64,000 bases of DNA from Curvibacter sp. GWA2_63_95 (GTDB taxonomy: Bacteria > Pseudomonadota > Gammaproteobacteria > Burkholderiales > Burkholderiaceae_C): assembly GCA_001795455.1 (NCBI GenBank), contig MGPB01000025.1, positions 1 through 64,000 of the forward strand, read 5' to 3'. The notes beneath the pieces were generated by a model. That model was not told the DNA's origin. It saw nothing but the letters and a program-made list of their open reading frames with translations, and ran no database searches. Below, in pieces: positions 21,491-54,624 of the stretch (its first letter is position 1; each line of letters starts with the position of its first letter). The position numbers and the translations under genes were made by a program.

Positions 21491-21537
21491 GTTTGCTATA
21501 TATTTAGGAGCTGCTCGCGCATGTTTTGCGGGGGCTA
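21491..21537 (-). repeat. Dispersed repeat, copy 3
   Basis: On the minus strand it reads TAGCCCCCGCAAAAC, then ATGCGCGAGCAGCTCCTAA, then ATATAGCAAA. It occupies the whole gap between the convergent queF and GGDEF-EAL genes. The TAG stop of the GGDEF-EAL gene (21535-21537) lies inside it. Confidence 0.78.
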
Positions 21538-24189
21538 GGCAACGATTTGCTTGCTATTTAGCAGGGCCTCCAGCTCCTCGATGGGCAGTGGCGTGGCAAA
21601 CAGGTAACCCTGGAACAGGTGGCAGCCGTGGGCGACCAAAAAGTAATATTGCTCCTCGGTCTCCACGCCCTCGGCAATCACTTCCAGGTCCAGGGTCTCG
21701 GCCATGCCCAGAATGGTTTGCACCATCACTGCGTCGGCAGCCTGTTCTCCCAGGTTGCGGATGAAAGACTGGTCGATCTTGAGTTGGTCCAGCGGCAGCT
21801 TGGTCAGGTAGGTCAGTGAGGATTGGCCGGTGCCAAAGTCATCCATCGAGAAGCGCAGGCCCAGCGCCTTGAGCTCCCGCATCTTGGCAATGGTCCCCTG
21901 CACGTCGTCCAGCACCAGGCTCTCGGTCAGCTCCAGTTTGAGCCTTTCGGGGTTGGCGCCGGTCTCTTGCAGGGTGGTGCGCACCAGGTCGACAAAACTG
22001 TCTTGGCGGAACTGCAGCGCGCTCACGTTCACCGCCATTTGCAGGTCTGCACGGTCGGGCTGTCGGGCCCACTCGGCCAGCTGGGTGCAGGCGGTGCGCA
22101 GCACCCATTCCCCCAGTGGCACGATGAGTCCGGTCTCTTCCGCCAGGCCGATGAAAACCAGCGGCGACACCAGACCGCGTGTGGGGTGCTTCCAGCGCAC
22201 CAGAGCCTCCACACCCATGGGCAGGCTCTCGTCCGACACCTGGAGCTGGTAGTACAGCGCAAACTCGCCCACCGCCAGTGACTGGCGCAGATCGCGCTCC
22301 AGCTCCGCCCGCGCCTCGATGGCGGCCAGCATTTGCGGATCGAAGAAGCACAGCGCGTTGCGGCCCGAACTTTTCACCTGGTACATGGCAATGTCGGCCT
22401 GCTTGAGCAACTCGGAGCTGGATTGCAGTGCGTCGCCAAACAGGGTTGCGCCCACGCTGCTGGTGCTGCGGTAGACCACCCCATTCAGGGAAAACGGCTC
22501 GTTCAGCGCGGCCAGGATGCTGTCGCCCACGATCTTTGTTTGCGACGCAGCCTCCATGGCGTGGGGGCTCAGGTCCTGCAGCATCACCACAAACTCGTCT
22601 CCGCCCAAGCGGGCCACTGTGTCGGCCTCGCGCACACAGGCGCTCACGCGCTGGGCCACCTGTTGCAGCAGCAGGTCGCCCACGTCGTGGCCCAGCGTGT
22701 CGTTCAGGGTTTTGAAATGGTCCAGGTCCATGAACAGCAGCGCCCCTTTGCGGCCGCTGCGGGCGCTGGCCATCACTGCTTGTTGCAGGCGGTCGCTCAG
22801 CAGGCGGCGGTTGGGCAGACCGGTCAAGGGGTCAAAGAAGGCGAGTTGTTCGATCTCGGCGCTGGCGCGGCGGATGTGGGTCACATCCTGGTAGACGATG
22901 ACCACACCGCCGTCGGGCGTGGTGCGTTCGGTGATCTCGATCACATGGCCATTGGGCAGGTGGCGCTCGTGGCTGTGCACGCGCTTGTGCAGCAGGGCCA
23001 TGCGGTCCTGCACCCACTGGCGCTGCGCCTCTGCGTCGGCCTGGGGCAGCGTGATGCGGGAGGTGGCTGTGAGCATGGTCTCAAACGGGATGCCCACGGC
23101 AATATGTTCGCGCTGCCAGGGGTAAATTTCCAGGTAGCGCCGATTCCAGCTCAGCACGCAGTGCTGCGCGTCCAGCAGCAGGAAGCCGCTTTCCATGGAC
23201 TCCAGCGCCTGGTCCAGGGTGGACTTGGCTTGCGAGATGGAGCGCTGCGCCTGCGCCATCTGCGCCAGGTAGCGCAGTGCCACGGCGCCGGCCCCCAGCA
23301 GCATCAGGACAAAGGCTGTGCTGACGCCCGCCACCAGCCAGCTCTCGCGCCGCCATTCACCCAGCACCGTGTCCATGGGAATGCTGGCCGTAATCAGGAT
23401 GTCGTGGTACAGCATCTTGCGTTGCACCACCAAGGCGTCCACACCGCTCAGGCGGGCGGGCATCTGGGTCGCGCCGTCCAGCGGGTTGCGCCCCCCCAGA
23501 GGCGGCTTGAGCAGGGTGCCCGAGAGGGAGTCCATGGCCGGTGCGCTGGCCAGCAACTGGCCGTCACCGCGTTCCAGAGTGGTCTCCAGCCCTTCAATGT
23601 CTACCCCCTGTACCAGGATGCTGGACAGCAGGGACACCTGGACCTCCGCAATCGCCAGCACCTTGGAACCATCGGCCAGACGGATGGGGCGCGCGAAATA
23701 CATCACCTGCTCCGAGCTGCTGAAGTTGACCACGGGCACGCTGATGGACAAGCCGGCCACCACCTGCTCCAGGGCCCGTGCCACAAAGTTTGGCGGGGTG
23801 GCCAGCACCAGCTCGGCACCCCGCGCGTCGGAGGAGGCCAGCATCTGCCCCTTGTCGTCCAGCAGGGCCACGTGGCGTACCAGCAGGTTTTGCCGCAGCG
23901 CACCCTGGATCAGCCGGCTGGCCAGCGTGCCGTCAATCCAGTCGCGCTGCAAGTTGGCCAAGCCCAGCAGGCTGTCCACGCTGGCCAGCAGCACGTCTAC
24001 GCCCAGCAGGTTGCGGTTCACGGCGGCCTCGGCACCCGCCACAAAACGCAGGGCCTGGCCTTCACTGTTGGCCACCGCGGTGCGGTAGCCGTCGCGCACC
24101 ATCAGGGTGGCCACCAACAGGACGGCTACGACAAATAGCAGCACCGAACCGACGACGGCACGGGTAGCGCGGAACGATGCCAGCCGCAT
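21535..24189 (-). CDS. Membrane-bound diguanylate cyclase/phosphodiesterase (sensor-PAS-GGDEF-EAL)
   Basis: 884 residues. A first transmembrane helix at about 12-32, an extracytoplasmic sensor of about 250 residues and a second helix near 280-302 precede a PAS-like segment. GGDEF is at 529-533 and EAL at 661-663. EAL-domain ligands are intact (NVSALQF, ELTESL, DDFGTG, KIDQSF, EGVETEEQ), so both cyclase and phosphodiesterase activity are possible. The ATG shares one base with the stop of the TRAP-type binding protein gene (TGATG), indicating coupled translation and suggesting that the binding protein reports to this sensor domain. Confidence 0.9.
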   Translation of the reverse strand: MRLASFRATRAVVGSVLLFVVAVLLVATLMVRDGYRTAVANSEGQALRFVAGAEAAVNRNLLGVDVLLASVDSLLGLANLQRDWIDGTLASRLIQGALRQNLLVRHVALLDDKGQMLASSDARGAELVLATPPNFVARALEQVVAGLSISVPVVNFSSSEQVMYFARPIRLADGSKVLAIAEVQVSLLSSILVQGVDIEGLETTLERGDGQLLASAPAMDSLSGTLLKPPLGGRNPLDGATQMPARLSGVDALVVQRKMLYHDILITASIPMDTVLGEWRRESWLVAGVSTAFVLMLLGAGAVALRYLAQMAQAQRSISQAKSTLDQALESMESGFLLLDAQHCVLSWNRRYLEIYPWQREHIAVGIPFETMLTATSRITLPQADAEAQRQWVQDRMALLHKRVHSHERHLPNGHVIEITERTTPDGGVVIVYQDVTHIRRASAEIEQLAFFDPLTGLPNRRLLSDRLQQAVMASARSGRKGALLFMDLDHFKTLNDTLGHDVGDLLLQQVAQRVSACVREADTVARLGGDEFVVMLQDLSPHAMEAASQTKIVGDSILAALNEPFSLNGVVYRSTSSVGATLFGDALQSSSELLKQADIAMYQVKSSGRNALCFFDPQMLAAIEARAELERDLRQSLAVGEFALYYQLQVSDESLPMGVEALVRWKHPTRGLVSPLVFIGLAEETGLIVPLGEWVLRTACTQLAEWARQPDRADLQMAVNVSALQFRQDSFVDLVRTTLQETGANPERLKLELTESLVLDDVQGTIAKMRELKALGLRFSMDDFGTGQSSLTYLTKLPLDQLKIDQSFIRNLGEQAADAVMVQTILGMAETLDLEVIAEGVETEEQYYFLVAHGCHLFQGYLFATPLPIEELEALLNSKQIVA

Positions 24190-25259
24190 CACTTGGGCGC
24201 TGGGGCCACGATGCCGTGGGCCCGCCCGATGGTTTGGTCCCAGAGTTCTTTGCAACGCTGGTTGCAGCGCTGCAGCCAGCGCGGCAGCACCGTGTCCCCA
24301 AAAATTTCCTTGCGCCGGCGTTCATCCTCGGGGCTGCGTGCCACCTCGGTCATGTTGCCTTTGCGCGTGGTGGTGCATTGGGGCTGGCCGCGGTTGCAGG
24401 CCAGTCCTTCGGCGGTTTCGCGTTCACTCTCATTCCAGATAGCGATCTCCAGCTTGGGGATTTCGTGCGACAGCAGCGCCCGCAGGTCGCCGGGCAGAGT
24501 CTCCCAAGCGGCTGCGTTGGCGCCGAACACGGCCAGGCCCCAGGTCAAGGGCAGGGTGTGCACATGGGTGGTCACCTCGTGCAGGCCCAGCAGGTTGCCC
24601 GACATGATGCCGGTGATGGCGCACTCGGTGTTGCCGGAGGCCATATTGGGCAGGATTTGGGCAAAACCCACCAACACCGGAATGGCTCCCAGCGCGCCCA
24701 TGAAGTCGGCCTGCGTGGCCGAGGACACGCGCACGCGCCGACCCTGCAGGTCGGCCAGCGAGGCCAGCGCACGTTTGCAAAACAGCACTTGCGCTGGGTA
24801 GACGTAGACCGCCAGCACTTCCACACCGTGGCGCTCGCGCAGTGATTTTTCGAGGTAAGGCCGAAACGCAGCCAGCGTCTTTTTCAGGGTGGCCATATCG
24901 GGGTTCAGACCCGCCAGGTCGGGGGCTGCGTACTCGGGATACTGGGCAGAGATATTGCTCAGCAAGGCCGTGCCGAAGGGCACCACCCCCAGTTGGATGA
25001 GGCGCAGCATCTCTGAGCCCGGTACGCCTGCGCGGTCAAACGGTGCAATTTCGGCGGTGTAGCGGCCCTGGCTCAGGCGTTGCAGCTCCTTGGTCCAGAA
25101 CGGCTCTTCGTTGCGGGTGTATTGGTTCAGGCCTGCCAGGCCGCCCACGATGCGCAGCTTCTGTGTTGCGGTCGAGGCCTCTGCCCAGGCGCGTGACATG
25201 CCCCCCAGGCCCAGTAAAAGGGCCAGGGTGCACAAGCTTGCTGCAGTGTGTGTGTTCAT
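24189..25259 (-). CDS. TRAP-type (DctP-like) periplasmic substrate-binding protein
   Basis: 356-residue secreted protein with a signal peptide ending RAWA (residue 26). The DctP fold is recognised by WTKELQRLSQGRY, GVPGSEMLRLIQLGVVPFG and LQGRRVRVSS. A lysine- and arginine-rich C-terminal extension of about 60 residues with two CNR/CNQ segments (GLACNRG, RCNQRCKELW) is unusual. The small and large membrane subunits of a TRAP transporter are absent. Instead the gene is directly coupled to a membrane GGDEF-EAL protein, so a sensory rather than a transport role is likely. The ATG has AAAGG upstream. Confidence 0.86.
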   Translation of the reverse strand: MNTHTAASLCTLALLLGLGGMSRAWAEASTATQKLRIVGGLAGLNQYTRNEEPFWTKELQRLSQGRYTAEIAPFDRAGVPGSEMLRLIQLGVVPFGTALLSNISAQYPEYAAPDLAGLNPDMATLKKTLAAFRPYLEKSLRERHGVEVLAVYVYPAQVLFCKRALASLADLQGRRVRVSSATQADFMGALGAIPVLVGFAQILPNMASGNTECAITGIMSGNLLGLHEVTTHVHTLPLTWGLAVFGANAAAWETLPGDLRALLSHEIPKLEIAIWNESERETAEGLACNRGQPQCTTTRKGNMTEVARSPEDERRRKEIFGDTVLPRWLQRCNQRCKELWDQTIGRAHGIVAPAPK

Positions 25260-25324
25260 GACGACCTTTCGCGCCTGGGTCGGGGCGGGCGGGCGTGCGC
25301 TTCTGCGGCGCGTGTGCAGCCCGG

Positions 25325-27943: not shown

Positions 27944-27974
27944 GGTCAACACTGTAGCCGTGTTGACCCCGTGG

Positions 27975-29534
27975 TCAAGGAAGCTTGAACACTTGCACCG
28001 AACGGGCCAAGGTGGCCGCACTGGCATTCAGCGCCGCAGCCGAGGCCGCCGACTCTTCAACCAGCGCTGCGTTTTGCTGCGTTACCGTGTCCAACTGGGT
28101 GACGGCCTCGTTCACCTGGGCGATGCCAATAGACTGCTCTTTGGTGGCACTGCCGATCAGCTGAATCAGGTCGCCGACTTCTTTCACTGATCGCACCACT
28201 TCGTCAATGGTTTGTCCGGCCCCCGTCATTTGGTGGTAGCCCGAAGAGATCTGCTCGGACGACTGCGCAATCAATTCACGGATCTCCTTGGCCGCCACGG
28301 CGCTGCGCTGCGCCAGGGCACGCACTTCAGATGCCACCACTGCGAAGCCGCGGCCTTGTTCACCCGCCCGAGCGGCTTCGACGGCAGCGTTGAGCGCGAG
28401 GATGTTGGTCTGGAAGGCGATGCCTTCGATGACGCCAATGATGTCGCGCATCTTTCCCGAGGACGCGTCTATGGCCTGCATGGCCTGGCTCACCTGGTGC
28501 ACCGCATTGCCACCCTGGGTGGCTACTTCGGTGCTCTTGGCGCTCTGGTTGGTCACGCGTGCGGCGGTATCCGCGGTTTGTTTGATGGTGCTGGAGATCT
28601 CTTCCATCGATGCGGCGGTTTCCTCCAGGCTGCTGGCCTGGGCTTCGGTGCGCGCGGACAAGTCCATACCGCCTTCGGCAATTTCGGCAGCCGAGCGGGT
28701 GAAGAGTGCAATCTCTCCTCGCACATCCCCCACCACGGCGCGCAGGTTGACCTGGATCTGCCGCAGCGCGCGAATCAAGGTGCCCAGAGGGGGAGGGTAT
28801 TGGCCGTCGACCGTGGTGGTGAGGTTGCAACCCGCTAGGTCATCGGCAAACGCCTCTGCTGTGCCAATGGCGGTGGCAAAGCGCAGTTGAAACCAGGCCA
28901 GCACGCAGCCCGCACCGATGAGCAGGGACACCAGCTGCGCGGCCACGGCTCCCCAGCCCTGCAGGCCCAAAAACTGCGGAATCATGCCCAGCAGGGTCAT
29001 GCCCAGCAGGGCCAGGGCCAGGCGGGTGCTCAGGGTGGTGCGGGTGAGGGCGCCCAGCCAGCCGCGCAGGCCCTTGTAACGCACCTCGCCGCTGCGCAAA
29101 TACATCAGGCTTTTGCCAGCCTGGCTATCGGCGCGCAATTGTGCGTACAGCGCCTCGGCCGCCTGCACGTCCTGGCGGCTGGGCTTGATGCGCACCGACA
29201 TATAGCCTTTGGGTTTGCCGTTTTCCAGGACCGGGGTGACGTTGGCCTGCACCCAGTAGTGGTCGCCGTTCTTGCGGCGGTTTTTGACCAGTGCCGTCCA
29301 AGGCTTGCCGCGGCCGATGGTTTGCCACATGTCCTTGTAGGCCTCGGGGGGCATGTCCGGGTGGCGCACCAGATTGTGGGGCTGGCCAATGAGCTCTTCG
29401 TAGGTGAACCCGCTGGTTTCCACAAAGGCATGGTTGCAGTGGGTAATGATGCCTTTGGTGTCCGTCATGGAGACCAGCATGTGATCGGCGGGGTATTCGT
29501 ACTCCCGTTGGGTCACAGGTAGGTTGTTGCGCAT
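27975..29534 (-). CDS. Aer-like PAS methyl-accepting chemotaxis protein
   Basis: 519 residues. The N-terminal PAS domain (about 15-115) contains [14 protein letters not shown] and [12 protein letters not shown], the Aer pattern that binds FAD and reports redox state. Two membrane helices follow at about 168-216, with no large periplasmic domain. The signalling hairpin tip lies within [28 protein letters not shown]. It probably mediates aerotaxis or energy taxis through CheA/CheW encoded elsewhere. The ATG has AGGGAG upstream. It is the first gene of a minus-strand signalling cluster. Confidence 0.92.
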
Positions 29535-29747
29535 CAGCTCTTCTCCCTTTGTTTATGGAAAACTTGTATTGATCAACCGTAAAAACATTTAGCAACAAGT
29601 TTGGGCCTGGCGTCAACTCGGATTACGCTGGGCCATGTTGTTTAATTGACTTGAATTAGGCTTGTATTGCGCGCACAAAATACCCGGATCGACCCTGCCG
29701 GATGCTGCAAATGTTTGGGGGCGCTGCGGGTCCAGTATGATTTTTCC

Positions 29748-30257: not shown

Positions 30258-30261
30258 GGGC

Positions 30262-31014
30262 TCAGGGGTTGCCGATCGCCAGCACGGCCGTGCGCAGCGC
30301 CTGCCAACCTGCCAACGCTTCAGCGGAGCGGCCCCTTGTGCAGTCCTCTTCCAGGCAATGCGCCTGGGTGCTTAATGCCGGATAACCCAGCATACGCAAC
30401 ACAGATTTGGCGTTATGTGCCAAGTGCCGCAGAGAGACCAGGTCGTGCGCGGCTGCAGCGGTATCCCCGTTGTGCACATCGTGGACAAACTGGGTCAAGC
30501 AGGTGGCCCGGTAGGCCCGGTACAGGGCGCCATCACCCGCGAAATATTCCTCAATCGCCGCCTGCGCATGCGCGCGCGCTGCGTTTGCAGGCAAAGGCTC
30601 CGGTGCTGCAGTTGCGGGGGGCTTGGTAGGGGATGCAGGCGCAAGCCCTTCGTTGATACAAGCCATCAATTGCACGACAGACACCGGCTTGTCCAAAAGG
30701 CACCAAACGTCCATGTGCACCAGTTCTTCGCGTCTGGCGGGGGTCAAGCCTGCGCTGAGCACCACCACGCGCGCCTGCCCACGCAGGGCGGGCTGCTCCT
30801 TCAGGCGTTGCAGCAAGCCCAGCCCGGACTCGCCCGGCATCATGAGGTCGGTCACGATGATCTGAACGGGGCCTTCTTGCAGCACCTGCACGGCGGTACT
30901 CACCCGGTCGCACGTAATGAGGTCCAGCGGCATGTCCTCCAACGCCATTTGCGCAAACCGCCGCAAAGCCGGGTCGTCATCGACCAAAAGGATGCGGGCT
31001 TGTGGAGCGGGCAT
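30262..31014 (-). CDS. Response regulator with C-terminal HPt domain (REC-HPt)
   Basis: 250 residues. The receiver (residues 6-122) has acidic Asp12-Asp14, phosphoacceptor Asp56 in VTDLMMPG, Ser in VVLSAG and Lys109 in LLDKP. A proline-alanine linker (about 125-150) leads to a helical domain with HNAKSVLRMLG, where His200 fits the HPt phosphohistidine position (compare H-x-x-K-G-S). There is no DNA-binding output. It probably acts as a phosphorelay intermediate. ATG 31014 begins two bases after the stop of the HTH-receiver gene, so the two are co-transcribed. Confidence 0.83.
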   Translation of the reverse strand: MPAPQARILLVDDDPALRRFAQMALEDMPLDLITCDRVSTAVQVLQEGPVQIIVTDLMMPGESGLGLLQRLKEQPALRGQARVVVLSAGLTPARREELVHMDVWCLLDKPVSVVQLMACINEGLAPASPTKPPATAAPEPLPANAARAHAQAAIEEYFAGDGALYRAYRATCLTQFVHDVHNGDTAAAAHDLVSLRHLAHNAKSVLRMLGYPALSTQAHCLEEDCTRGRSAEALAGWQALRTAVLAIGNP

Positions 31015-31016
31015 GG

Positions 31017-31682
31017 TTACTGTGCCGGAAGCTTGTTCAGGCACGCACTGAGCAGGCCGGGCAGCTCGACCACCAGCTGCGGCTTGTGCACCACCGCAAT
31101 GCCGTGCAGGGAAAATGCGTAAGGGGTCAGTTGCTGGGCATCCAGTGAGGTCACCACGATGATTTGCATGGCCTGGAACTGCGGCATGGCGCGCAGGCTG
31201 GTAATCAAGGCTGCACCGTCAATGCCGGGGAGCAGGATGTCCACCATCAGCACATCGGGCTGGTATTGCCCGACCATGGCCAGGCCGGAGATGCCATCGC
31301 TGGCCGTTAACAGTTCCACCTGCGGGAACTGTTGACCCAGTAGCAGCTTGATCAGGTTCTGGAAGTGGGCCGAATCCTCGATCAGCAGCACCCTGGGGGC
31401 GCTTCGTCCCGGCGTTGGGGCCGGTCCGGTCCGGTGGCCCGATAAGGTGGGCACCTGGTCCTGGGGGGGGGTGTTGACCCGTTCGCCCTGGCGCCAGCGT
31501 TCGACCGATGTGCGGGAGATGCGCCTGTGGCCACCCGGTGTTTTCCATGCTTCCAGCTCGCCCCGGTCCACCATCAGTTGGACGGAGCGTACCGCCATTC
31601 CCAGCAGGCGCGCTGCTTCCAGCGTGGTGACGTGGTCGTCTGCGGGGACCTTGGAAAGAGAGGACTTGTCTAATTGCATCAT
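31017..31682 (-). CDS. Response regulator with N-terminal excisionase/MerR-like HTH and C-terminal receiver
   Basis: 221 residues. An N-terminal winged helix-turn-helix of the excisionase/MerR type (about 18-64, TTLEAARLLGMAVRSVQ...TPGGHRRISR) is linked by a proline-rich spacer to a receiver (about 96-215). The receiver has Glu102-Asp103, phosphoacceptor Asp148 in MVDILLPG, Thr in VVTSL and Lys in VHKPQ. Most DNA-binding response regulators have the opposite domain order. It probably controls the divergent signalling operon. The start MMQL could be either Met; no clear ribosome site is seen. Confidence 0.83.
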   Translation of the reverse strand: MMQLDKSSLSKVPADDHVTTLEAARLLGMAVRSVQLMVDRGELEAWKTPGGHRRISRTSVERWRQGERVNTPPQDQVPTLSGHRTGPAPTPGRSAPRVLLIEDSAHFQNLIKLLLGQQFPQVELLTASDGISGLAMVGQYQPDVLMVDILLPGIDGAALITSLRAMPQFQAMQIIVVTSLDAQQLTPYAFSLHGIAVVHKPQLVVELPGLLSACLNKLPAQ

Positions 31683-31749: not shown

Positions 31750-31800
31750 AGATAATAACTGATACCAACAACGGTGCCGCCGTGCGCGCGGAAATGGCCT

Positions 31801-32166
31801 ATGAAAAAGATTTTGATTGTGGAAGACCATGCTGACATCCGGCGCCTGATCCGCATGACGCTCGAGTTTGACAACTACGAGATTCGCGAGGCCGTGGACG
31901 GGGACTCTGCGCTGGCGATCGCCCAAGAGTTCGAGCCCGACTTGCTGCTGCTGGATGTGATGATGCCCGGCAGCCTCGATGGCCTGGATGTGTGTTCCAT
32001 GGTCAAGCTCCAATACAAGGCGCCCCGCGTGGTCTTGTTGTCCGCCCGCGGGCGCAGTGAGGACTTTGAAGCCGGCATGCACGCGGGAGCCGATGCCTAC
32101 CTGGTCAAGCCCTTCAGCCCGCTGGCCCTGATAGAAACGATCAATGCGCAGTGGGAGGTTGCATGA
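31801..32166 (+). CDS. Single-domain response regulator (REC)
   Basis: 121 residues, a stand-alone CheY-like receiver: acidic pair Glu8-Asp9, phosphoacceptor Asp52 in LLDVMMPG, Ser in LLSARG and Lys in VKPFSP. It has no output domain. The four-base ATGA overlap with the HD-GYP gene makes it functionally a detached receiver for that phosphodiesterase. It closely resembles the receiver at 50793, including a SLDG/ALDG insertion after MMPG and the block DAYLVKPFSP. Confidence 0.9.
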   Translation: MKKILIVEDHADIRRLIRMTLEFDNYEIREAVDGDSALAIAQEFEPDLLLLDVMMPGSLDGLDVCSMVKLQYKAPRVVLLSARGRSEDFEAGMHAGADAYLVKPFSPLALIETINAQWEVA

Positions 32167-32939
32167 CGATGGACGCGTTGACAGGCCTGCCGGATGAGCT
32201 GGGCGGAGGCAACAGTTTTTCGCCGGAGGCCTCCATGCAGATGGAGCGCCTGGTCGGGGATTTTGGGCGCATGTACCGTGAGCGCAACGATGCGCTCAAC
32301 GAGGTGGCACATGCGCACCACGAGGCGCTTTTCCGCTTGTCGCTGGCGGCCGATCTGAAAGACGACGACACCGGCATGCACATCATCCGCATTGGATTTT
32401 TATCGGAGGCACTGGCTTTGCTGATGGGGGAATCACCGGCCAAAGCTGCCATGCTGCGCAAAGCGGCGCCGATGCACGACATAGGCAAGATTGGAATTCC
32501 GGACCGGGTCCTCAAAAAGCCAGGTGCGTTTGACCCGGAGGAACGGGCCATCATGAATGAACACGCCCGCATGGGGGCCGAAATTCTGGGCCGTTCACGC
32601 ATTCCCTTGTTCCAACTGGCCGCCGAGCTGGCCCTGTCACACCACGAGCGCTGGGATGGCAGTGGCTATCCCTCGCAACTTGCAGGATCGGCTATCCCTT
32701 TGTCAGGTCGCATTGTGGCGATTGTGGATTTTTTTGATGCCCTGACCATGGACCGTGTCTACCGTCCAGCCTTGCCGGTCGATGTGGCATTGCCCATGCT
32801 GCTGGCGCAGCGTGGCAAAGCGTTCGACCCGGAGATTGTGGATACATTCATGGCAAACGCGGTCGAACTCAATGCCCTGCGGGAGCGTATCAAAGCCAGC
32901 CATTTGAGTTATTCGGATTTGGTGAATGGAGTCGTTTGA
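32163..32939 (+). CDS. HD-GYP cyclic-di-GMP phosphodiesterase
   Basis: 258 residues. The HD pair is at 105-106 in MHDIGKIGIPDRVL, HHERWDGSGYP places GYP at 168-170, and DFFDALTMDRVYRPA is the conserved third block. These are the metal- and substrate-binding residues of HD-GYP enzymes that cleave c-di-GMP. An N-terminal helix of about 50 residues precedes the catalytic core. It lacks its own receiver, which is encoded by the overlapping upstream gene. ATG 32163 is the start; a GTG at 32151 is less likely. Confidence 0.92.
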   Translation: MTMDALTGLPDELGGGNSFSPEASMQMERLVGDFGRMYRERNDALNEVAHAHHEALFRLSLAADLKDDDTGMHIIRIGFLSEALALLMGESPAKAAMLRKAAPMHDIGKIGIPDRVLKKPGAFDPEERAIMNEHARMGAEILGRSRIPLFQLAAELALSHHERWDGSGYPSQLAGSAIPLSGRIVAIVDFFDALTMDRVYRPALPVDVALPMLLAQRGKAFDPEIVDTFMANAVELNALRERIKASHLSYSDLVNGVV

Positions 32940-33780
32940 GATGGTGAAGATATACGGAACGGAAAGGGGCGCTGCCCTGCCAGTGCCGGCCAAGATGCTT
33001 GGCTGGGTTTGTGCCATGGTCATCGGGTGGGCGGCATCGGGTGCTGCCACGGCGGCCGGTGTGCTGGACCGCGTCAGAGCGAAAGAGACCGTGCGGGTCT
33101 GTATTTGGCCCGATTACTTCGGCGTCAGCCACCGCAACCCCAACACCCAGCAGCTCGAAGGCGTGGACATCGATTTGTCCGTCGAACTGGGGAAAGACCT
33201 CAAGGCCAAGGTGCAGTATGTCGATTCGTCGTTCGCCACGCTGGTCGACGATGTGACCGCAGAGCGCTGCGATGTCGCCATGTTTGCGGTGGGCATGCTG
33301 CCACAGCGCCTGCAACATCTCAAGTTCTCGCGGCCCTATATGCAGAGCGACATCTACGCCATCACCACCAAAAGCAACCGCACGGTGCGCCAATGGTCGG
33401 ACATCGACCAGCCGGGCGTGCTGGTGGGGGTGCAAGGCGGCACCTTCATGGAGCCGGTGATGAAGGCCAAGCTGACACAAGCCGAGATGCTGGTCATCAA
33501 GCCCCCACAGACGCGCGAGCGTGAGTTGGAGGCGGGGCGCATCGATGTTTTCATGACCGATTTTCCCTACAGCCGCCGCTTGCTCAGCAATGCGGACTGG
33601 GCCAAGCTGATTGCCCCCCCCACACCTTTTTCGGTCCTGCCTTACGGGTATGCTGTCAAGCCGGGCGACGAGGCTTGGTTGGCCGTGATTGACGGGTTTG
33701 TGGCGCGTATCAAAAAAGATGGGCGCTTGCGTACCGCCGCCACGCGCCACGGCCTGTTGCCCATCGTGGTGAACGACTGA
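32926..33780 (+). CDS. Family-3 periplasmic solute-binding protein (amino-acid type), kinase-linked
   Basis: 284 residues with a signal peptide (hydrophobic stretch ending ATAA, about residue 43). The SBP_bac_3 fold shows in VRVCIWPDYFGVSHRN, LEGVDIDLSVELGKDLKAKV, RCDVAMFAVGMLPQRLQHLKFSRPY and GVLVGVQGGTFME. No permease or ATPase gene is nearby. It is flanked by HD-GYP and histidine kinase genes in one operon. I infer a ligand-presenting co-receptor for the kinase. ATG 32926 overlaps the HD-GYP stop; ATG 32941 is an alternative. Confidence 0.85.
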   Translation: MESFEMVKIYGTERGAALPVPAKMLGWVCAMVIGWAASGAATAAGVLDRVRAKETVRVCIWPDYFGVSHRNPNTQQLEGVDIDLSVELGKDLKAKVQYVDSSFATLVDDVTAERCDVAMFAVGMLPQRLQHLKFSRPYMQSDIYAITTKSNRTVRQWSDIDQPGVLVGVQGGTFMEPVMKAKLTQAEMLVIKPPQTRERELEAGRIDVFMTDFPYSRRLLSNADWAKLIAPPTPFSVLPYGYAVKPGDEAWLAVIDGFVARIKKDGRLRTAATRHGLLPIVVND

Positions 33781-45206: not shown

Positions 45207-45274
45207 TTTATGAACAAAATAGGCCTCTAGCCCTCGTGGAATATGCGCAAGCAGCTACTAAATTTATAGCGGTT
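45207..45274 (+). repeat. Dispersed repeat, copy 5
   Basis: Intergenic between ogt and the RcnB-like gene. It reads TTTATGAACAAAATAGGCCT, then AGCCCTCGTGGAATATGCGC, then AAGCAGCTACTAAATTTATA, and is full length by comparison with copy 6. The rest of this 197-base gap holds nothing else I can identify. Confidence 0.8.
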
Positions 45275-45295
45275 TGCAGCCCACCTGCCCGGGGC

Positions 45296-45847: not shown

Positions 45848-45856
45848 GGCCGGGGC

Positions 45857-46387: not shown

Positions 46388-46452
46388 GGGTGTGGAAGTG
46401 GGCTGGTGCAGGTGTGCATCGTAGTCCCTTGCGCAGCTATGCGTGTCGTCAC

Positions 46453-47217: not shown

Positions 47218-47235
47218 GGCGGATGGCTCCGTGGT

Positions 47236-49524: not shown

Positions 49525-49628
49525 TAGGTTGGCTACGCATGCGCAAGTATTACCTCGCGGGACCCCGTGGAGACCCCGATGGGGAAGGAATGTGCATGAG
49601 CTTTTAAAAATATCATTTCAATCAATAT

Positions 49629-49656
49629 TTGACTTTATTGATAAAAGTGATAAATT
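49629..49656 (+). promoter_or_regulatory. Candidate sigma-70 promoter of the second signalling operon
   Basis: TTGACT (49629-49634), a 16-base spacer and TAAATT (49651-49656), 33 bases before the ATG at 49690. The surrounding stretch (49600-49685) is strongly AT-rich, and its AAATATCA...TTGATA wording resembles the promoter patch at 31700-31745. Confidence 0.55.
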
Positions 49657-49689
49657 AAATGCAGCAAACAGCAAATTTATATCCAGATC

Positions 49690-50796
49690 ATGGCTATCAA
49701 TTACCACCAACCCTCCGTAAACGCGCTTTTCGATGCGATGCCGTGGCCGATTCTGACCTTCGGCGTCAATGGATTGATCAGCTATGCGAACAAGGCTGCC
49801 AAGGTGCATCCCGGCAAGCCGGTAGACGCCATGAGCGGGAAGCCTGTCATCAAGTCCCTGGTGAGGGATGTGGCGCTGAACAAAGTAAAACTTCCCTACA
49901 AAGTTGACGTTGAGTTGGCGGATGGGAATCGTGTTGCCGGCATGTTCATGGCGGGCCCTTGTGGATTGGATATTGCCTTTGTCATCCAGGATGCCACGGA
50001 ACAGGCCAGCCGGGAGACCCAACTGCGCGGCCTGCCGGACATCATTGCGCTGCTTCGCGATGAAGTGGGCCCCCCCTTGCGCAAGCTCTCCGGTCTGCTG
50101 GGCTCGCTGCCCGAAAGTTCTGAGCTTGCTGCATTGGAAGAGGCCGCAGGTGCGCTGGACCAACGGCTTCGGCGTTTGGCTGACCTGATCGCCGTGTTCG
50201 GCGACGAGGTGCTGATTACCACGGACCGTATCGAACTGTCGGAGGTTGTTCAGTCAGTCTGTGCGGAACTGACACCTCGCGCAACTGCCAAAAAGGTGCT
50301 GATTCAAATTACGGAGCCTTCGCAGGTGCTTCCGCCCATCTATGGCAATGCCAATCTCATTCGGCGTGCTTTTTTCGAGTGTTTTGACAACGCAATCACC
50401 CACTCCCGCAGAGAGGTCAACAGCCAGCAACAGCTGTTGGTCAAAGTCGCCTACACACTGACCGGAGAACATGTGCTGATCACGGTGCGCAATTTGGGGG
50501 CCATTCCTGAAGAGGAGCGGGGTGTGGAAACCCGTGATGTATTCACGAAATCGCCCAACCTCCCAGCCAATGACACCAAAGGCAGATTGGGCCTGCCGCT
50601 GGTGAGCCGCATCGTGGGGCTGCATGGGGGCAACATCCGTGTTGCGGCAATGGGGGATGACGAGACGCGGGTCATGATGGAGTTCCCCACAGGGGCCCCT
50701 TTGCGCGGGCAAGCACAGCTCGATATTGCCCAGGCGCAGCGCTATGCCGCGGATCTGGCCCAACTTATGTCACGCCGTAAAAAGGAGGCAGCATGA
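49690..50796 (+). CDS. PAS-containing degenerate histidine kinase (phosphoacceptor His replaced)
   Basis: 368-residue soluble protein. An N-terminal PAS domain (about 8-105) leads to a dimerisation-like helix pair. RDEVGPPLRKLSGLLG occupies the place of the usual SHELRTPL...ILG, putting Asp124 where the phosphohistidine should be. The ATPase domain keeps the N box (FECFDNAITHS), a G1-like NLGAIP without the usual Asp-x-Gly, and GRLGLPLVSRIVGLHGG. Autophosphorylation therefore looks impaired. It overlaps the receiver gene by four bases. It may bind ATP and regulate the partner kinase or receiver. No ribosome site is clear at the ATG. Confidence 0.82.
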   Translation: MAINYHQPSVNALFDAMPWPILTFGVNGLISYANKAAKVHPGKPVDAMSGKPVIKSLVRDVALNKVKLPYKVDVELADGNRVAGMFMAGPCGLDIAFVIQDATEQASRETQLRGLPDIIALLRDEVGPPLRKLSGLLGSLPESSELAALEEAAGALDQRLRRLADLIAVFGDEVLITTDRIELSEVVQSVCAELTPRATAKKVLIQITEPSQVLPPIYGNANLIRRAFFECFDNAITHSRREVNSQQQLLVKVAYTLTGEHVLITVRNLGAIPEEERGVETRDVFTKSPNLPANDTKGRLGLPLVSRIVGLHGGNIRVAAMGDDETRVMMEFPTGAPLRGQAQLDIAQAQRYAADLAQLMSRRKKEAA

Positions 50797-51170
50797 AACG
50801 CAGTGCCTTGATTGTTGACGATCAGGTCGATATCAGGAGTCTTTTGCTTGTGACCATGGAGTCCGAGGATTTCGACCTCCATGAAGCCGACAACGGAGAA
50901 GACGCCTGGCGCATTGCGCAGAACCTGCGCCCCGCCATCGTGCTCCTCGATGTGATGATGCCTGGGGCACTGGACGGGTACCAGGTGTGCCAAAAAATAA
51001 AGACCGATGCCACCCTGCAATCCATGACCAAGGTCATCCTGCTGACGGCCCGGGGCCAAAGAACGGACATCGAAAGAGGCGAGGCCGTGGGGTGTGATGC
51101 CTACCTGGTGAAACCATTCAGCCCGATAGAACTGCTGGATACCGTCGACAGATTGCTGGCAAAACCATGA
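50793..51170 (+). CDS. Single-domain response regulator (REC), paralogue of the one at 31801
   Basis: 125 residues. Asp9-Asp10, phosphoacceptor Asp53 in LLDVMMPG, Thr in LLTARG and Lys in VKPFSP are intact. There is no output domain. A strong AAAGGAGG site precedes the ATG, and ATGA overlaps join it to both the degenerate kinase upstream and the binding protein downstream. The shared GALDGYQVC / GSLDGLDVC and DAYLVKPFSP blocks indicate common descent with the receiver of the first island. Confidence 0.9.
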   Translation: MKRSALIVDDQVDIRSLLLVTMESEDFDLHEADNGEDAWRIAQNLRPAIVLLDVMMPGALDGYQVCQKIKTDATLQSMTKVILLTARGQRTDIERGEAVGCDAYLVKPFSPIELLDTVDRLLAKP

Positions 51171-52039
51171 AAAAACACCTCCTGCCCTCTTCCATTCGCC
51201 GTTCCATGCTGGGGGCCGGCATCGGCTTGGCAGCGCATTGGGCCTTGCCGGCCATCGCCGCCACGCCACAGCCCACCACGGGCCGTCGCGCCTTGCGCCT
51301 TGCGGTGGTCCCCCAGCTAACCGCCATTGAAATGAGCCGGTACTGGTCTCCCATAGTGGATGCCCTGGGGCAAAGCGGCATCCCCTGTGAGCTGGTGGTG
51401 TATCCATCGATCGCGAGTTTTGAAGCCGAGTTTCTGAGCGGGAAGGCCGATCTTGTCTTCTTGAACCCCTACCACATGGTCATGGCGCACCGTGCGCACC
51501 GGTACGAACCCTTGTTGCATGACGCGCGAGGCTTGGAGGGGGTTTTGCTGGTCAGCGCAGATGGGCCTATCGAGCGGATTGAGCAATTGAAAGGGCAGCG
51601 GATATCGTTTCCAGCGCCCAATGCGTTCGCCGCAAGTCTCTACATCCGGTCGGTCCTCGATGTGAAGCACCATTTGTCGTTCGAGGCCCACTATGCCCAG
51701 AACCATCGCAATACATTACGCCAGGTCCTCCTCGGCGACTCCATGGCCGCGGGCTTGGTGAAAACCACGCTGGAGAAAGAAGCACCAGAGGTGCAGCAGA
51801 AATTGCGCACCATTTACACCACGCCATCTTTGGCTCCGCACCCCTTGGCGGTTCACCCGCGTGTTTCTCGCTCTGTCAGAAATGCCATTACGGAAGTGCT
51901 GCTGGGTCTTGCCGCAGCTCCGCAAACACAGGCACACATGGCAGGGATACAAATGCCCAACCCAGTCCTTACCAGTTACGCAACGGACTACGCTCCATTT
52001 GAACAACTGCACATCGACAAGTACGTCATCCTGGAGTGA
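51167..52039 (+). CDS. PhnD-type periplasmic binding protein, kinase-linked
   Basis: 290 residues with a signal peptide (RRSMLGAGIGLAAHWALPAIAA, cleaved near residue 32). The PhnD/phosphonate-binding fold is shown by LRLAVVPQLTAIEMSRYWSPIVDAL, ADLVFLNPYHMVMAHR, LKGQRISFPAPNAFAASLYIR and DSMAAGLVKTTLE. It has no transporter genes. It is embedded between receiver and kinase genes with coupled translation (ATGA at 51167). The likely role is to bind a small anion or oxo-compound and present it to the membrane kinase; the ligand is unknown. Confidence 0.87.
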   Translation: MKKHLLPSSIRRSMLGAGIGLAAHWALPAIAATPQPTTGRRALRLAVVPQLTAIEMSRYWSPIVDALGQSGIPCELVVYPSIASFEAEFLSGKADLVFLNPYHMVMAHRAHRYEPLLHDARGLEGVLLVSADGPIERIEQLKGQRISFPAPNAFAASLYIRSVLDVKHHLSFEAHYAQNHRNTLRQVLLGDSMAAGLVKTTLEKEAPEVQQKLRTIYTTPSLAPHPLAVHPRVSRSVRNAITEVLLGLAAAPQTQAHMAGIQMPNPVLTSYATDYAPFEQLHIDKYVILE

Positions 52040-52044
52040 ACGTT

Positions 52045-54624
52045 ATGGACGCTGTATCGCGACTTAAAGCCTTGATTGAGCCGCCGTACAGCTTGCGTGC
52101 AGCCATCATGGCGGGCGCAACGGTCGTCATCGTGGTCCTTGGCTCCGTTTTTGCCGCGTTTGCTTACAACCGGCTGGAAGCGGTGACGTGGACCAACGCA
52201 AAAAACTGGTCTGAATCCATGGCCCACCTCGTGGCCAACGGCAATGCCAGCGCCGTGATTCTCAATGATGTGGCCGCCATTGAATCCAATTTGCAGCAAG
52301 TTGCAGAGCTTCCCGGTATCGACCGGATCGCCGTGTACCGGGCGGATGGTCGGCAGTTGGTGGTGGCCTTCAAGCAGAACGAAGAGATTCGATCGGAAGT
52401 CGGCGGCAAGGCGCGCATGGCGATCCCTTTGAATAGCGCGTCAAATGTGCCCGGAGTTACGTACGAAAATTACTACGAAGCGTGGGCCCCTGTTTTGATA
52501 CACGATGAGAACCCCAGCGCCTGGGTTCAAGTGCATTTCAGCCTCAGCCAAAGAAACACTGAATTGCGCCAACTGTGGGTCATGTCTGGCTTGGGCATTG
52601 CGTTGTTGGTGGTCCTGGTTATCGCCAGCCTCCAATACATCACGGCGCGTGTGTTGCAACCCATTCGGGCACTGTCGCTTTATGCACAGGAGATGCCCAC
52701 GCACATTGGCAGTCAAATTCAGGTTTCACACAACACGATTGAAGTCGGACAACTCGGTACGGCGCTTAATGAGGCTAGCAGAGGCATTGCAGAGCACATC
52801 GGCCGCACCCAAGCGATTGTCAATACCGCCTCGGAGGCCATCATCGGGCTGGACTCGCAAGGGAGGATTGCGACCTTGAATCCCGCCGTCAGCAGCTTCT
52901 TTGGGCGTCCAGAGGAAAGCATGCTGAGCCAGTCGGTTGAAAGCTGTGTGCCGGGGCTCAGCGTGCAGGCCTTGGAGGAGATGTTCGATCAGTCGAGTGC
53001 TTATCTCTCTGGGGTCAATCGCGTTGTCCGGAAAGAATTTTTCGGGACGCGTGCGGATGGGACTCTGTTCCCCGTCGAGATCTCACTGGGCGCCGTGGCA
53101 AACATCGAAGGCTTGCGATACGTCTGCATCATGCGCGACGTAACAGATGAACGCGCCGCGCTGGAATTTACCGAGCTGTACGAGCGTGCCCTTGCTTGCA
53201 GTCACAACTCGGTTTTCATTACGAATGCAAAGCTTGAGCATCAGCCCATTGTCTATGTCAACGATGCTTTTCAGGCCATGCTGCAACTCCCTCTGCACCA
53301 GATACTTGGAAAGAACATGGAGGAATTGGTCAGCATGGACTCCGATGCGCGGGCGCTCAAAGAATTGCGACTCGCAATGTCTGAGCAGCGCATCGCCAAC
53401 GTGACGTTGCACAAGACCTTGCCGAATGGCACAAAGCGGACCGTCGAGCTGTCACTCTCTCCCGTGAGGTCGGACAAGGGAACGCTCACCAACTTCGTGG
53501 GTATTGTTTTGGATGTGACTGCGCGGGTGTTGGCCGAGGAAGCCATCGCGAAGCGTCGTGCGCAGCTGGATGCAATCTTCAGCCTCAGTCCGGATGGGTT
53601 CGTGCTTTTTGATGCCAACGATTACATGGTGTTTGCCAATCCCGCGTTCGAGCGAATGACGGGTTGGAGTTGGGCCGAAAGCGCTCCGCCTGTGCACATG
53701 AATGATTTTGAAACCATGATGCGTGCCCTCTGCGATGACGATCAGGCGGCCTTGTCTTTGAGCGCCAACACCTCCGACGACCAGCCGTGGCAAGCGCGAT
53801 TGCATCTGACGCGCCCGCAAACCCGGGTTGTGCAGGCACAGTCGCGCAGGAATATTGCCGGGCGCAGTGAAACCATTTTGTACTTCCGCGATGTCACGCA
53901 TGAAGATGCCGTGGATCGGATGAAAAGTGAATTCCTGGCGGCCGCTGCACATGAGCTGCGTACCCCCATGGTCAGCATCTTTGGCTTTACAGAGTTGCTA
54001 CTCAAACGGAAATTTACGCCTGAGCGACAGGCTGACATGTTGCAGACCATTCATCGCCAGTCCGGCTTGCTGGTGAAGATGATCAACGAACTGTTGGATC
54101 TGGCACGCATTGAATCGCGTGGTGGGCTGGATATGCAGATTGATGCGCACCCATTGACGGAGCTCGTCGAAAACAGTGTGAAGGGGCTTATGCGCACCGA
54201 CACGGAGCGCCAGGTGCAGGTGGGCGTCACGCCGGATGTTTTGGTGTTGATTGACCCTGAAAAGATGCAGCTCGCCATGAACAACTTGCTGAGCAATGCC
54301 TTCAAATATTCACCACATGGTGGCACGGTGTGTCTGCAATCGCGCATTGAGCACAACGAAGGCAACGGCTTTGTCGTGATCGAGGTCAGTGACCAAGGGA
54401 TAGGCATGTCACCCGAACAGCTGGAACGGGCATTTGAGCGCTTCTACAGGGCGGATGCGTCGGGCAACATACCCGGGACCGGGCTGGGCCTGAGCTTGGT
54501 CAAGGAGGTTGCCGAGTTGCACCAAGGCCGGGTCACCTTGTCCAGCACATTGGGCTCTGGAACTACCGCCCACCTGTGGATTCCGCTGGCCACCAACAAA
54601 CCCTTGGCCTTGTCCAGGGACTGA
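52045..54624 (+). CDS. Membrane sensor histidine kinase with HAMP and three PAS domains
   Basis: 859 residues. Helices at about 20-43 and 172-195 enclose a periplasmic domain of about 130 residues. A HAMP region and PAS domains near 250-370, 375-495 and 505-620 follow. The phosphoacceptor is His636 in AAAHELRTPM, and ATPase boxes are NLLSNAFKYSP, DQGIGM and GTGLGLSL. ATG 52045 is preferred over the GTG at 52036 because GGAG lies eight bases upstream. It is the last gene of the operon. The receiver at 50793 is the obvious phosphotransfer partner. Confidence 0.92.
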   Translation: MDAVSRLKALIEPPYSLRAAIMAGATVVIVVLGSVFAAFAYNRLEAVTWTNAKNWSESMAHLVANGNASAVILNDVAAIESNLQQVAELPGIDRIAVYRADGRQLVVAFKQNEEIRSEVGGKARMAIPLNSASNVPGVTYENYYEAWAPVLIHDENPSAWVQVHFSLSQRNTELRQLWVMSGLGIALLVVLVIASLQYITARVLQPIRALSLYAQEMPTHIGSQIQVSHNTIEVGQLGTALNEASRGIAEHIGRTQAIVNTASEAIIGLDSQGRIATLNPAVSSFFGRPEESMLSQSVESCVPGLSVQALEEMFDQSSAYLSGVNRVVRKEFFGTRADGTLFPVEISLGAVANIEGLRYVCIMRDVTDERAALEFTELYERALACSHNSVFITNAKLEHQPIVYVNDAFQAMLQLPLHQILGKNMEELVSMDSDARALKELRLAMSEQRIANVTLHKTLPNGTKRTVELSLSPVRSDKGTLTNFVGIVLDVTARVLAEEAIAKRRAQLDAIFSLSPDGFVLFDANDYMVFANPAFERMTGWSWAESAPPVHMNDFETMMRALCDDDQAALSLSANTSDDQPWQARLHLTRPQTRVVQAQSRRNIAGRSETILYFRDVTHEDAVDRMKSEFLAAAAHELRTPMVSIFGFTELLLKRKFTPERQADMLQTIHRQSGLLVKMINELLDLARIESRGGLDMQIDAHPLTELVENSVKGLMRTDTERQVQVGVTPDVLVLIDPEKMQLAMNNLLSNAFKYSPHGGTVCLQSRIEHNEGNGFVVIEVSDQGIGMSPEQLERAFERFYRADASGNIPGTGLGLSLVKEVAELHQGRVTLSSTLGSGTTAHLWIPLATNKPLALSRD

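Follow-up and report, generated by a model that had tools for sequence, protein, structure and literature searches.

Three binding-protein genes paired with membrane sensor genes, predicted to encode co-receptors, in a bacterium close to Rhodoferax

Background

A periplasmic binding protein is the co-receptor of a kinase in LuxP-LuxQ, ChvE-VirA, TorT-TorS and BctC-BctE. These proteins belong to other binding-protein families than the three described here, and we know of no swap of output to c-di-GMP enzymes within any of these pairs. NspS, a PotD-like polyamine-binding protein, is an example with such an enzyme. In polyamine sensing by Vibrio cholerae, this separate periplasmic protein associates with the membrane GGDEF-EAL enzyme MbaA and sets the synthesis or breakdown of c-di-GMP, according to the part of PMC8967002 used here. 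In L-arginine sensing by Salmonella, the putative arginine-binding protein ArtI is required together with STM1987, a dCACHE_1 diguanylate cyclase, and this is the nearest match of a binding protein with a dCACHE sensor in the part of PMC8846402 used here. For AioX-AioS and ArrX-ArrS, a PhnD-like protein is encoded beside a kinase gene and serves the sensing of arsenic oxyanions, not transport (PMC5908839, in part). In the part of PMC9602780 used here, 13 of 22 solute-binding protein (SBP) families have a receptor-stimulating role, and only about ten binding-protein/kinase pairs had been characterised at its writing.

The window, which is the whole stretch of 64,000 nucleotides analysed, comes from a bacterium close to Rhodoferax and holds one binding-protein gene each of the DctP, family-3 and PhnD types (Table 1). 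Each adjoins a membrane sensor gene with no transporter, and it is highly probable that the proteins dock with their ligand on the periplasmic domain of the sensor, as predicted, and so switch its output. The proteins, predicted to be secreted, would likely be detachable sensors of small molecules outside the cell and not parts of uptake pumps, because adjacency to a sensor, not to a transporter, is kept in relatives across the family. For all three modules we infer secretion, docking, ligands and the direction of switching, and the proposed mechanism, as in NspS-MbaA and AioX-AioS, would be of an already known kind. The initial annotation of the window regarded binding-protein co-receptors as known singly and the three proteins as three folds, both of which were overstated. 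We take all three to be bilobal binding proteins. Most SBP families belong to two Pfam clans, and the stimulation of receptors by SBPs is treated as general and widespread, in the part of PMC9602780 used here.

Table 1. Features of the three modules in the window
Module	Feature	Coordinates	Strand	Basis or remark
DctP	Partner membrane protein, dCACHE-PAS-GGDEF-EAL, 884 aa	21535..24189	-	Pfam; GGDEF and EAL motifs intact
DctP	Predicted dCACHE periplasmic domain of GGDEF-EAL partner, residues 33-281	23347..24093	-	Candidate docking surface for DctP protein
DctP	DctP-family (TRAP-type) solute-binding protein	24189..25259	-	Pfam DctP PF03480 2e-15; 356 aa from ATG 25259
Family-3	REC-Hpt protein, divergent	30262..31044	-	Pfam Response_reg and Hpt
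Family-3	HTH_17-REC protein, putative transcriptional output	31017..31682	-	Pfam
Family-3	Stand-alone receiver (REC)	31801..32166	+	Pfam Response_reg 1.8e-27 (on 31774-32166); ATG 31801
Family-3	HD-GYP c-di-GMP phosphodiesterase	32151..32939	+	Pfam HD_5 (PF13487) 3.5e-34; HD and GYP motifs intact
Family-3	Family-3 (amino-acid type) solute-binding protein	32926..33780	+	Pfam SBP_bac_3 1.7e-20; alternative ATG 32941
Family-3	Partner histidine kinase, dCACHE-PAS-PAS-HisKA-HATPase, 838 aa	33796..36312	+	Pfam; SHELRTP at residue 611
Family-3	Predicted dCACHE periplasmic domain of partner kinase, residues 37-295	33904..34680	+	Candidate docking surface for family-3 protein
PhnD	HATPase_c protein, head of module	49690..50796	+	Pfam HATPase_c 1.8e-8
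PhnD	Stand-alone receiver	50793..51170	+	Pfam Response_reg 9e-25
PhnD	PhnD-type (Phosphonate-bd) solute-binding protein	51167..52039	+	Pfam 2.3e-45
PhnD	Partner histidine kinase: CHASE8-like periplasmic domain, HAMP, PAS, HisKA-HATPase	52036..54624	+	Pfam, CHASE8 (2e-5) and HAMP below curated cut-offs; HELRTP at residue 639

Results and Discussion

Gene arrangement

Pfam domains and bases place the DctP, family-3 and PhnD-type genes where the initial annotation had put them, each closely linked to the membrane sensor gene downstream of it and with no transporter gene in its module, as it had also described. Read from the bases, the DctP/partner junction TGATG is a one-base overlap, the receiver/PhnD junction ATGA is a 4-base overlap, and the family-3 partner kinase starts 16 bases on, all as claimed. 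Two other junctions depend on the start codon. The claimed 14-base overlap of the HD-GYP and family-3 genes holds for a start at ATG 32926, whereas ATG 32941 is one base past the HD-GYP stop; among relatives, TS-BS-61-7 has the 14-base overlap, while the ORF of Rhodoferax sp. TH121 starts one base past the stop. The PhnD partner kinase starts 6 bases on, as claimed, from ATG 52045, or alternatively from GTG 52036 with a 4-base overlap. Overlooked before were two parts of the family-3 module, namely the receiver gene, which overlaps the HD-GYP gene by 16 bases, and the divergent REC-Hpt/HTH-REC pair (31682-30262). The HTH-REC gene is divergent at 12 of the loci of 29 family-3 relatives, and the REC-Hpt gene is divergent beside 11, ten of them within 3 kb and the eleventh at 6 kb. 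The DctP protein has an N-terminal signal sequence, as read by eye. For the HATPase_c protein at the head of the PhnD module, hydropathy predicted no membrane helix, and there was no match to the phospho-acceptor His motifs HE or H[DE].RTP.

Neither BPD_transp_1 (57 matches in the whole genome) nor DctM (9 matches) was found on the 93-kb contig. All ABC ATPases found on it are those of a transporter for branched-chain amino acids (129-3717), which is separated from the nearest module by about 18 kb and has two permeases of the BPD_transp_2 type, a type looked for at this locus only.

Conservation of the pairs and their relation to transport

Is the pairing of binding protein and sensor kept in relatives? 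The initial annotation had proposed a survey of Comamonadaceae genomes for it. In 150 genomes of the family we found three conserved sensory groups, of DctP, family-3 and PhnD type, and the pairing is conserved across the family, without transporters apart from 3 of 29 family-3 and 3 of 20 PhnD regions; we found no transporter whose occurrence follows that of these binding proteins. Neither of the two outcomes that the initial annotation had named as refuting its reading was observed. All 23 DctP relatives at 330 bits or more, which define the sensory set, have downstream on the same strand a sensor with the same dCACHE-type domain, one partner (L048) ending at a contig end beyond the sensor domain. 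A partner with the same sensor domain was found for 28 of 29 family-3 relatives, the remaining one being cut at a contig edge, and each of the best 20 PhnD relatives is paired with either a kinase or a c-di-GMP (GGDEF) protein. As to the exceptions, the ABC permease genes in family-3 regions are all on the opposite strand, and two of those in PhnD regions are near, one on the same strand 1.9 kb upstream (L169) and one divergent at 0.3 kb (L177). Five weaker PhnD relatives lie beside ABC genes and make up a single clade of their own (five rows, 100/100); the ABC label was checked with Pfam for L159 and L160 and read by eye for L162, L164 and L166, and the kinase label of L158, L161 and L163 in this tree denotes membrane proteins with PAS that are truncated where the 1.5-kb flank ends.

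The DctP family allows a direct comparison with transport. The TRAP permease gene DctM was seen in none of the 23 sensory DctP regions (1.3-8 kb of flank per side), whereas it lies beside 16 of 17 more distant DctP relatives, where no signalling neighbour was seen; the exception, L071, is at the edge of a short contig and has the TRAP label in the DctP tree nevertheless. The TRAP-linked proteins are of the same binding-protein family, and the six cysteines of the sensory clade are largely common to both (15 of the 17 have them), but a TRAP transporter has DctQM (searched for as DctM), in the place of which the sensory clade has the sensor gene. Positions that are fixed in the sensory clade and vary among the other relatives include Pro94, Arg133, Arg141, Tyr152, Gly225 and Glu271. 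On the tree, from which the split DctP of one genome (L058 of G003) was left out, the sensory group branches apart from its transporter-linked relatives by a single branch with support 100/99. Because there is only this one split, the counts for DctM are not independent events. Three genomes (G071, G101 and G143) each carry one transport and one sensory copy. Among 273 other genomes from the class, only three reached E 1e-40, at 141-218 bits and all beside DctM, so in this sample sensory DctP is restricted to the family. In a separate scan, two Xanthobacter DctP relatives also had a GGDEF-EAL gene downstream, and the partner's sensor region at one of them (L241) scored no match to that of the window.

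Could the binding proteins still serve transporters elsewhere, so that the operon with a sensor does no more than place uptake and sensing under common regulation? Binding proteins with both uses are known, for example maltose-binding protein with Tar. The ligand-contact residues are kept: Arg177, presumably the conserved carboxylate-binding Arg of TRAP DctP subunits, is found in 40 of 40 aligned DctP rows (23 sensory and 17 other), and Arg128 and Asp212 in 30 of 30 family-3 rows. Moreover, the genome has an orphan DctQM pair on another contig (C21:332840) with no DctP within 200 kb, and weaker relatives of this DctM occur in 95 of the 150 genomes at E 1e-60, some of them with sensory DctP, e.g. 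G066, G143 and G088. However, its close orthologues (688 bits or more) were found in G053, G055 and G105 only, all of which are without sensory DctP, and thus in none of the 23 genomes with it. Of 22 DctM ORFs beside other DctP relatives, 18 best match another DctM of the window's genome and four the orphan (L062, L073, L255 and L256). The distribution of the close orthologues lowers the probability that the orphan pair is a hidden partner of sensory DctP, though only in part, since weaker relatives are common. Given also the distribution of DctM and the separate transport and sensory copies, continued service to transporters is improbable as the explanation, while occasional service is conceivable because the orphan pair exists and weaker relatives are common.

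Sensor domains and exchange of outputs

Single-chain models of the sensor domains in the DctP and family-3 modules predict with good confidence a dCACHE fold for each, a periplasmic domain of double PAS-like type flanked by two membrane helices. LuxQ was not among the 50 fold matches listed for either model, which excludes nothing. What lies behind the sensor domain is variable. The 25 DctP partners scanned (22 of the 23 in the family, without L048, that of the window, and two from Xanthobacter) are 17 GGDEF-EAL proteins and 8 kinases. The 28 family-3 partners (27 of 29, without L113 and L131, and that of the window) comprise 19 kinases, four GGDEF proteins (three with EAL), two SpoIIE proteins and three that are split, short or degenerate; the 21 PhnD partners are 16 kinases and five GGDEF proteins. 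The pair stays while the output changes between kinase, GGDEF(-EAL) and SpoIIE phosphatase. The binding protein would then confer specificity, and the sensor domain would serve as an adaptor able to carry different outputs. A general sensory design, as first proposed for the window, is thus supported family by family, and more strongly than could be seen at the time, because outputs swap while the pair persists; the occurrence of three modules within 33 kb, then offered as evidence for it, does not serve as such (see below).

The distances of DctP proteins and of their sensors correlate with r = 0.71 (22 pairs, L048, with its partner cut at the contig end, and L058 being omitted), and those of family-3 proteins and sensors also with r = 0.71 (28 pairs); in each case none of 999 permutations reached the value. 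The correlation fits co-evolution or shared species history alike.

It may be asked whether the signal binds to the dCACHE or CHASE8 sensor itself, while the binding protein only buffers or scavenges ligand, or signals independently. R.W[YF] is an amino-acid motif of directly sensing dCACHE domains, and it occurs in 0 of 24 and 0 of 29 sensor domains, which leaves room for other direct ligands; in addition, the pairing was kept over 23 and 28 loci through the swaps of output. On the other side, the dCACHE domains of the diguanylate cyclases SpdE and GcbC bind small molecules directly in the part of PMC8846402 used here, and AI-2 is the reported ligand of the dCACHE domain that gave the best fold match. 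Since such domains can bind ligands directly, a sensor could act without its binding protein, but the persistent pairing makes this an unlikely general account. Could the adjacency instead be chance clustering of functionally unlinked genes? Signalling genes are densely packed in this region, and one close Rhodoferax is the only relative in which the three modules were seen together. Nevertheless, the pairs persist in other genera at 43-72% identity of the binding protein while the flanking genes change. For example, QueF, the MaoC gene, the phytase-like gene and orf19497 of the window are in none of the 23 sensory DctP regions, and the partner is in all 23. The adjacency of DctP and its partner exceeds chance, and an explanation by chance clustering is hardly credible.

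Proposed signalling by the three modules

Under the co-receptor reading, the DctP protein would, probably with an organic acid as its ligand, make the GGDEF-EAL enzyme produce or break down c-di-GMP, as NspS does for MbaA. The predicted arrangement is alike, a binding protein with a membrane GGDEF-EAL enzyme, but the window protein is of the Pfam DctP and not the polyamine type, and its dCACHE partner family carries kinase outputs too. No description of a DctP/GGDEF-EAL pair was found in the literature searched (titles and beginnings of abstracts, with most subscription papers and bioRxiv outside the scope).

The nearest solved sequences to the family-3 protein are cyclohexadienyl dehydratase, with 2e-26 to ancestral reconstructions, which denotes similarity only. 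With an amino acid or a related compound as its likely ligand, the family-3 protein would set the state of the partner kinase. The kinase in turn would pass the signal to the stand-alone receiver, which would act together with HD-GYP, and to the REC-Hpt/HTH-REC phosphorelay. Four family-3 relatives use GGDEF outputs as ArtI-STM1987 does, but the window gene adjoins a kinase gene and belongs to a conserved cluster that includes receivers and HD-GYP.

Best solved relatives of the PhnD protein are ArrX (1.6e-8) and PtxB (4e-5), and the genes in the order REC-PhnD-kinase (50793-54624) agree with AioX, ArrX and ArxX in that a PhnD-like protein is encoded with a sensor kinase and a response regulator. 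Is it then an arsenic sensor? The pocket residues of these sensors are Cys106, Ser161 and Ser163 in the part of PMC5908839 used here. In the alignment with ArrX, the window protein lacks the pocket Cys and has Ala for both Ser, its only Cys being residue 74; by these residues, arsenic sensing is ruled out. The protein may set the state of the CHASE8-type kinase and of the receiver close by, a role like that proposed for AioX towards AioS. Its partners carry several types of sensor (sCache_3_2, CHASE8 and LapD_MoxY_N), the sensor region of the window's partner matched only 6 proteins in a large database, and this partner scores at least 25% of its self score at 1 of the 11 top PhnD loci. A single docking mode for PhnD partners is therefore unlikely.

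Implications

How might such pairs have arisen in this family? We lean towards a scenario in which several binding-protein lineages left transport for good and became interchangeable front ends, each with its sensor domain and with outputs swapped behind it. DctP would be a datable switch from TRAP transport to c-di-GMP co-receptor, of a class undescribed in the literature we found. Most c-di-GMP enzymes, like many kinases, have to our knowledge no signal assigned to them. If the pairs work as predicted, ligands could be identified with the small soluble binding proteins, which are easily purified and screened, and dozens of sensors would gain a signal together. Sister pairs of transport and sensory copies, in three cases within one genome, make the change from transport protein to receptor testable, and could show which surface residues changed in it.

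Clustering of the modules in relatives

Does the cluster of three modules form a conserved unit? Four named or same-genus Rhodoferax-type genomes were compared. In one of them, the same-genus genome G125, none of the three binding proteins has a close relative. In R. ferrireducens OTU1 the DctP and family-3 genes are far apart, apparently on different contigs, and the PhnD match reaches only 26 bits; in TS-BS-61-7 the DctP and family-3 genes are 7.7 kb apart, with no PhnD match. Rhodoferax sp. TH121 alone has all three modules together, with the window's own spacing, and since the cluster was seen beyond the window only there, it was rejected as a conserved unit. In a genome of another genus (G002), the PhnD and family-3 modules lie within about 5 kb of each other.

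Three modules of binding-protein and signalling genes

Are the binding proteins in the window co-receptors of the membrane sensors next to them, or are they parts of transporters? The initial annotation had described three unrelated binding proteins, of the DctP, family-3 and PhnD types, each joined to signalling genes without permease or ATPase genes, and it proposed a sensory role for them. This observation stands, as reading of genes, domains and motifs found the three modules present as described. The short overlaps and gaps between the genes are also as given, with one correction, a second good start for the family-3 gene. A receiver gene directly ahead of HD-GYP had been missed. Motif reading found the GGDEF, EAL, HD and GYP motifs intact, and likewise the H-box in each of the two partner kinases. 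No phospho-acceptor histidine motif was found by motif search in the HATPase_c protein at the head of the PhnD module; this protein may be a kinase that has degenerated, or it may act on the adjoining receiver by another route.

Features of the window discussed in the text
Feature	Position	Strand	Remark
Branched-chain amino-acid ABC set	129-3717	+	two BPD_transp_2 permeases, two ATPases
dCACHE-PAS-GGDEF-EAL protein	21535-24189	-	partner of DctP
DctP binding protein	24189-25259	-	
PAS-GAF-GGDEF-EAL protein	25325-28027	-	second such enzyme, just upstream of DctP
PAS-chemoreceptor	27975-29534	-	upstream of DctP
Response regulator	31017-31682	-	HTH_17/MerR-like DNA-binding domain ahead of receiver domain; conserved with family-3 module
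Receiver	31801-32166		121 residues
HD-GYP protein			family-3 module
Family-3 binding protein	32926-33780	+	second start ATG 32941, one base past HD-GYP stop
dCACHE kinase	33796-36312	+	partner of family-3 protein
HATPase_c protein	49690-50796	+	head of PhnD module
PhnD-type binding protein	51167-52039	+	
Kinase	52036-54624	+	partner of PhnD-type protein

The DctP module in relatives

Among 150 family genomes, the window's own included, DctP relatives of at least 330 bits occur in 23 other genomes (the split gene of genome G003 being counted once), 15 further loci score 149-264 bits, and the remaining listed matches lie below 70. The 40 regions compared were these 23, the 15 intermediate ones and two weak ones. 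The next same-strand downstream gene carries the same sensor domain at all 23 high-scoring loci, one partner (L048) being cut by the contig end beyond that domain. DctM was absent from all 23 within the DNA examined, which was at least 7-8 kb on each side of DctP, except that at three loci one side was as short as 1.3 kb. Of the 17 lower-scoring loci, 16 have DctM beside them and one, which lies at a contig edge, does not; no signalling neighbour was seen in any of the 17 within 6 kb or to the contig end. On the tree a single branch (support 100/99) divides the sensory from the transporter-linked kind.

The partners, counted with the window's own and two from Xanthobacter, are GGDEF-EAL proteins in 17 of 25 cases and histidine kinases in 8; a receiver domain was also matched in 8 of the 25. 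The kinase label needs five changes on the DctP tree, at least two of them forced by well-supported branches. Is the ligand site still in use? Arg177, which we take from TRAP proteins to be the carboxylate ligand, is identical in all 40 alignment rows, as are Gln157 and Thr216, and six cysteines are common to 23/23 sensory rows (the window and 22 others) and 15/17 of the rest; this argues that the sensory DctP proteins retained their ligand site.

The window's genome (3.88 Mb, 40 contigs) has 10 DctP matches, the window's being the lowest at 57.9 bits and the others at least 192. DctM was not found on the contig of the window's DctP, nor on that of another DctP gene, which lies at a contig edge (C40). 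A DctQM pair with no DctP gene nearby (G000:C21:332726-334123, L257) adjoins heavy-metal P-type ATPases and a PAP2 gene.

Rhodoferax TH121 and TS-BS-61-7, whose DctP proteins are 89% and 86% identical to the window's, show the same order of chemoreceptor and PAS-GAF-GGDEF-EAL genes upstream of DctP, and a chemoreceptor gene also lies upstream of DctP at region L239. None of the 23 surveyed sensory regions contains a protein close to the window's chemoreceptor (at least 25% of self score). The DctP, HD-GYP and family-3 partner genes of G003 (L058, L116) are each broken between frames, possibly by decay or by an error in sequencing.

The family-3 module in relatives

Family-3 relatives of at least 255 bits occur in 29 other genomes, the next match scoring 93. 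A sensor partner lies downstream in 28 of the 29 regions, and the remaining one (L131) is cut at a contig edge. Three weak control relatives (L135-L137) have no signalling neighbour, and two of them have an ABC permease. The 28 classified partners (27 relatives and the window's) comprise 19 kinases, 4 GGDEF proteins (3 with EAL), 2 SpoIIE phosphatases and 3 that are split, short or degenerate.

Unlike the DctP case, further genes travel with this module: HTH-REC in 12/29 loci, REC-Hpt in 11/29, HD-GYP in 10/29 and a same-strand REC at most 3.6 kb upstream in 9/29. They suggest a phosphorelay with putative wiring from the family-3 kinase to HD-GYP and to transcription; 17/29 loci are without these phosphorelay genes. 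Arg128 and Asp212, kept in all 30 rows, align with the Arg and Asp that bind the ligand in amino-acid-binding proteins.

The SpoIIE-type partners (two by Pfam, placed by eye at L110 and L128) also have an ATPase-like C-terminus, which suggests that the family-3 front end there controls an alternative sigma factor. Among solved sequences, those nearest to the window's family-3 protein are ancestral reconstructions of cyclohexadienyl dehydratase; this enzyme descends from a binding protein.

The PhnD module and the search for permeases

Of the three modules, that of PhnD is the loosest, since sensor types vary among its partners and the window's own sensor region has only 6 relatives found in a large database. 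Scores of the relatives grade smoothly. Each of the 20 best matches outside the window's genome (at least 49 bits) is partnered by a kinase or a GGDEF protein; with the window's own, 16/21 are kinases and 5/21 GGDEF, a label needing at least four changes on the tree. With 1.5-kb flanks, five of eleven weaker loci lie by ABC ATPase or permease genes, five by kinases or PAS sensors, and one by a chemoreceptor gene; the five ABC-linked relatives form one clade (100/100). The nearest solved structures to the window protein are ArrX and PtxB. The arsenic-binding residues of ArrX-type proteins are not kept. At L167 (genome G144) a PhnD-type gene overlaps an upstream chemoreceptor gene by four bases.

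A permease profile built from 26 sequences of the window's genome recovers 30/30 control loci there, 26 of these being its own training rows. It matches nothing in the window, none of the 23 sensory DctP regions, 3/29 family-3 regions and 3/20 PhnD regions. The profile is blind to BPD_transp_2, the permease type of the complete branched-chain amino-acid ABC set at 129-3717 in the window, and the counts for relatives apply to the permease type on which it was built. Two of the PhnD cases (L169, L177) are close to the binding-protein gene, and these count against the sensory reading.

Relation to known receptors

The sensory reading is right in kind and is better supported in detail than was first claimed; docking, ligands and direction of switching are predictions. 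The reading is less novel in principle than was claimed. Receptors stimulated by SBPs have been called general and widespread, involving 13 of 22 SBP families, with about ten characterised SBP/kinase examples (PMC9602780), and many SBP-activated kinases have genes adjoining that of their SBP, while one tested pair, that of AgtS, gave no binding (PMC11113362). Among single systems, NspS can set the GGDEF-EAL enzyme MbaA in both directions (PMC8967002), and ArtI is paired with the dCACHE cyclase STM1987 (PMC8846402). What appears new, so far as literature searches show, is a sensory clade of DctP proteins whose outputs are GGDEF-EAL or kinase, the clean separation of this clade from relatives linked to transporters, and the swapping of outputs in all three binding-protein families.

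Clustering of the modules

Is the grouping of three modules also general? In Rhodoferax TH121 the DctP gene lies 7.67 kb from the family-3 gene and the latter 18.3 kb from the PhnD gene, the same spacing as in the window; from their positions we conclude that a single contig carries the DctP region (NZ_NOXW01000021.1) and the regions of the other two genes (contig number 14). TS-BS-61-7 has its DctP and family-3 genes at a distance of 7.7 kb and gave no match to PhnD, and in R. ferrireducens OTU1 the DctP and family-3 genes are far apart, apparently on different contigs, with a PhnD match of only 26 bits. Thus the modules are grouped only locally, whereas each by itself is general. One other genome of the window's genus (G125) was included in the search. 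In another genus, a PhnD-kinase and an HD-GYP-family-3-kinase module lie about 5 kb apart (genome G002, contig C14, L118/L168).
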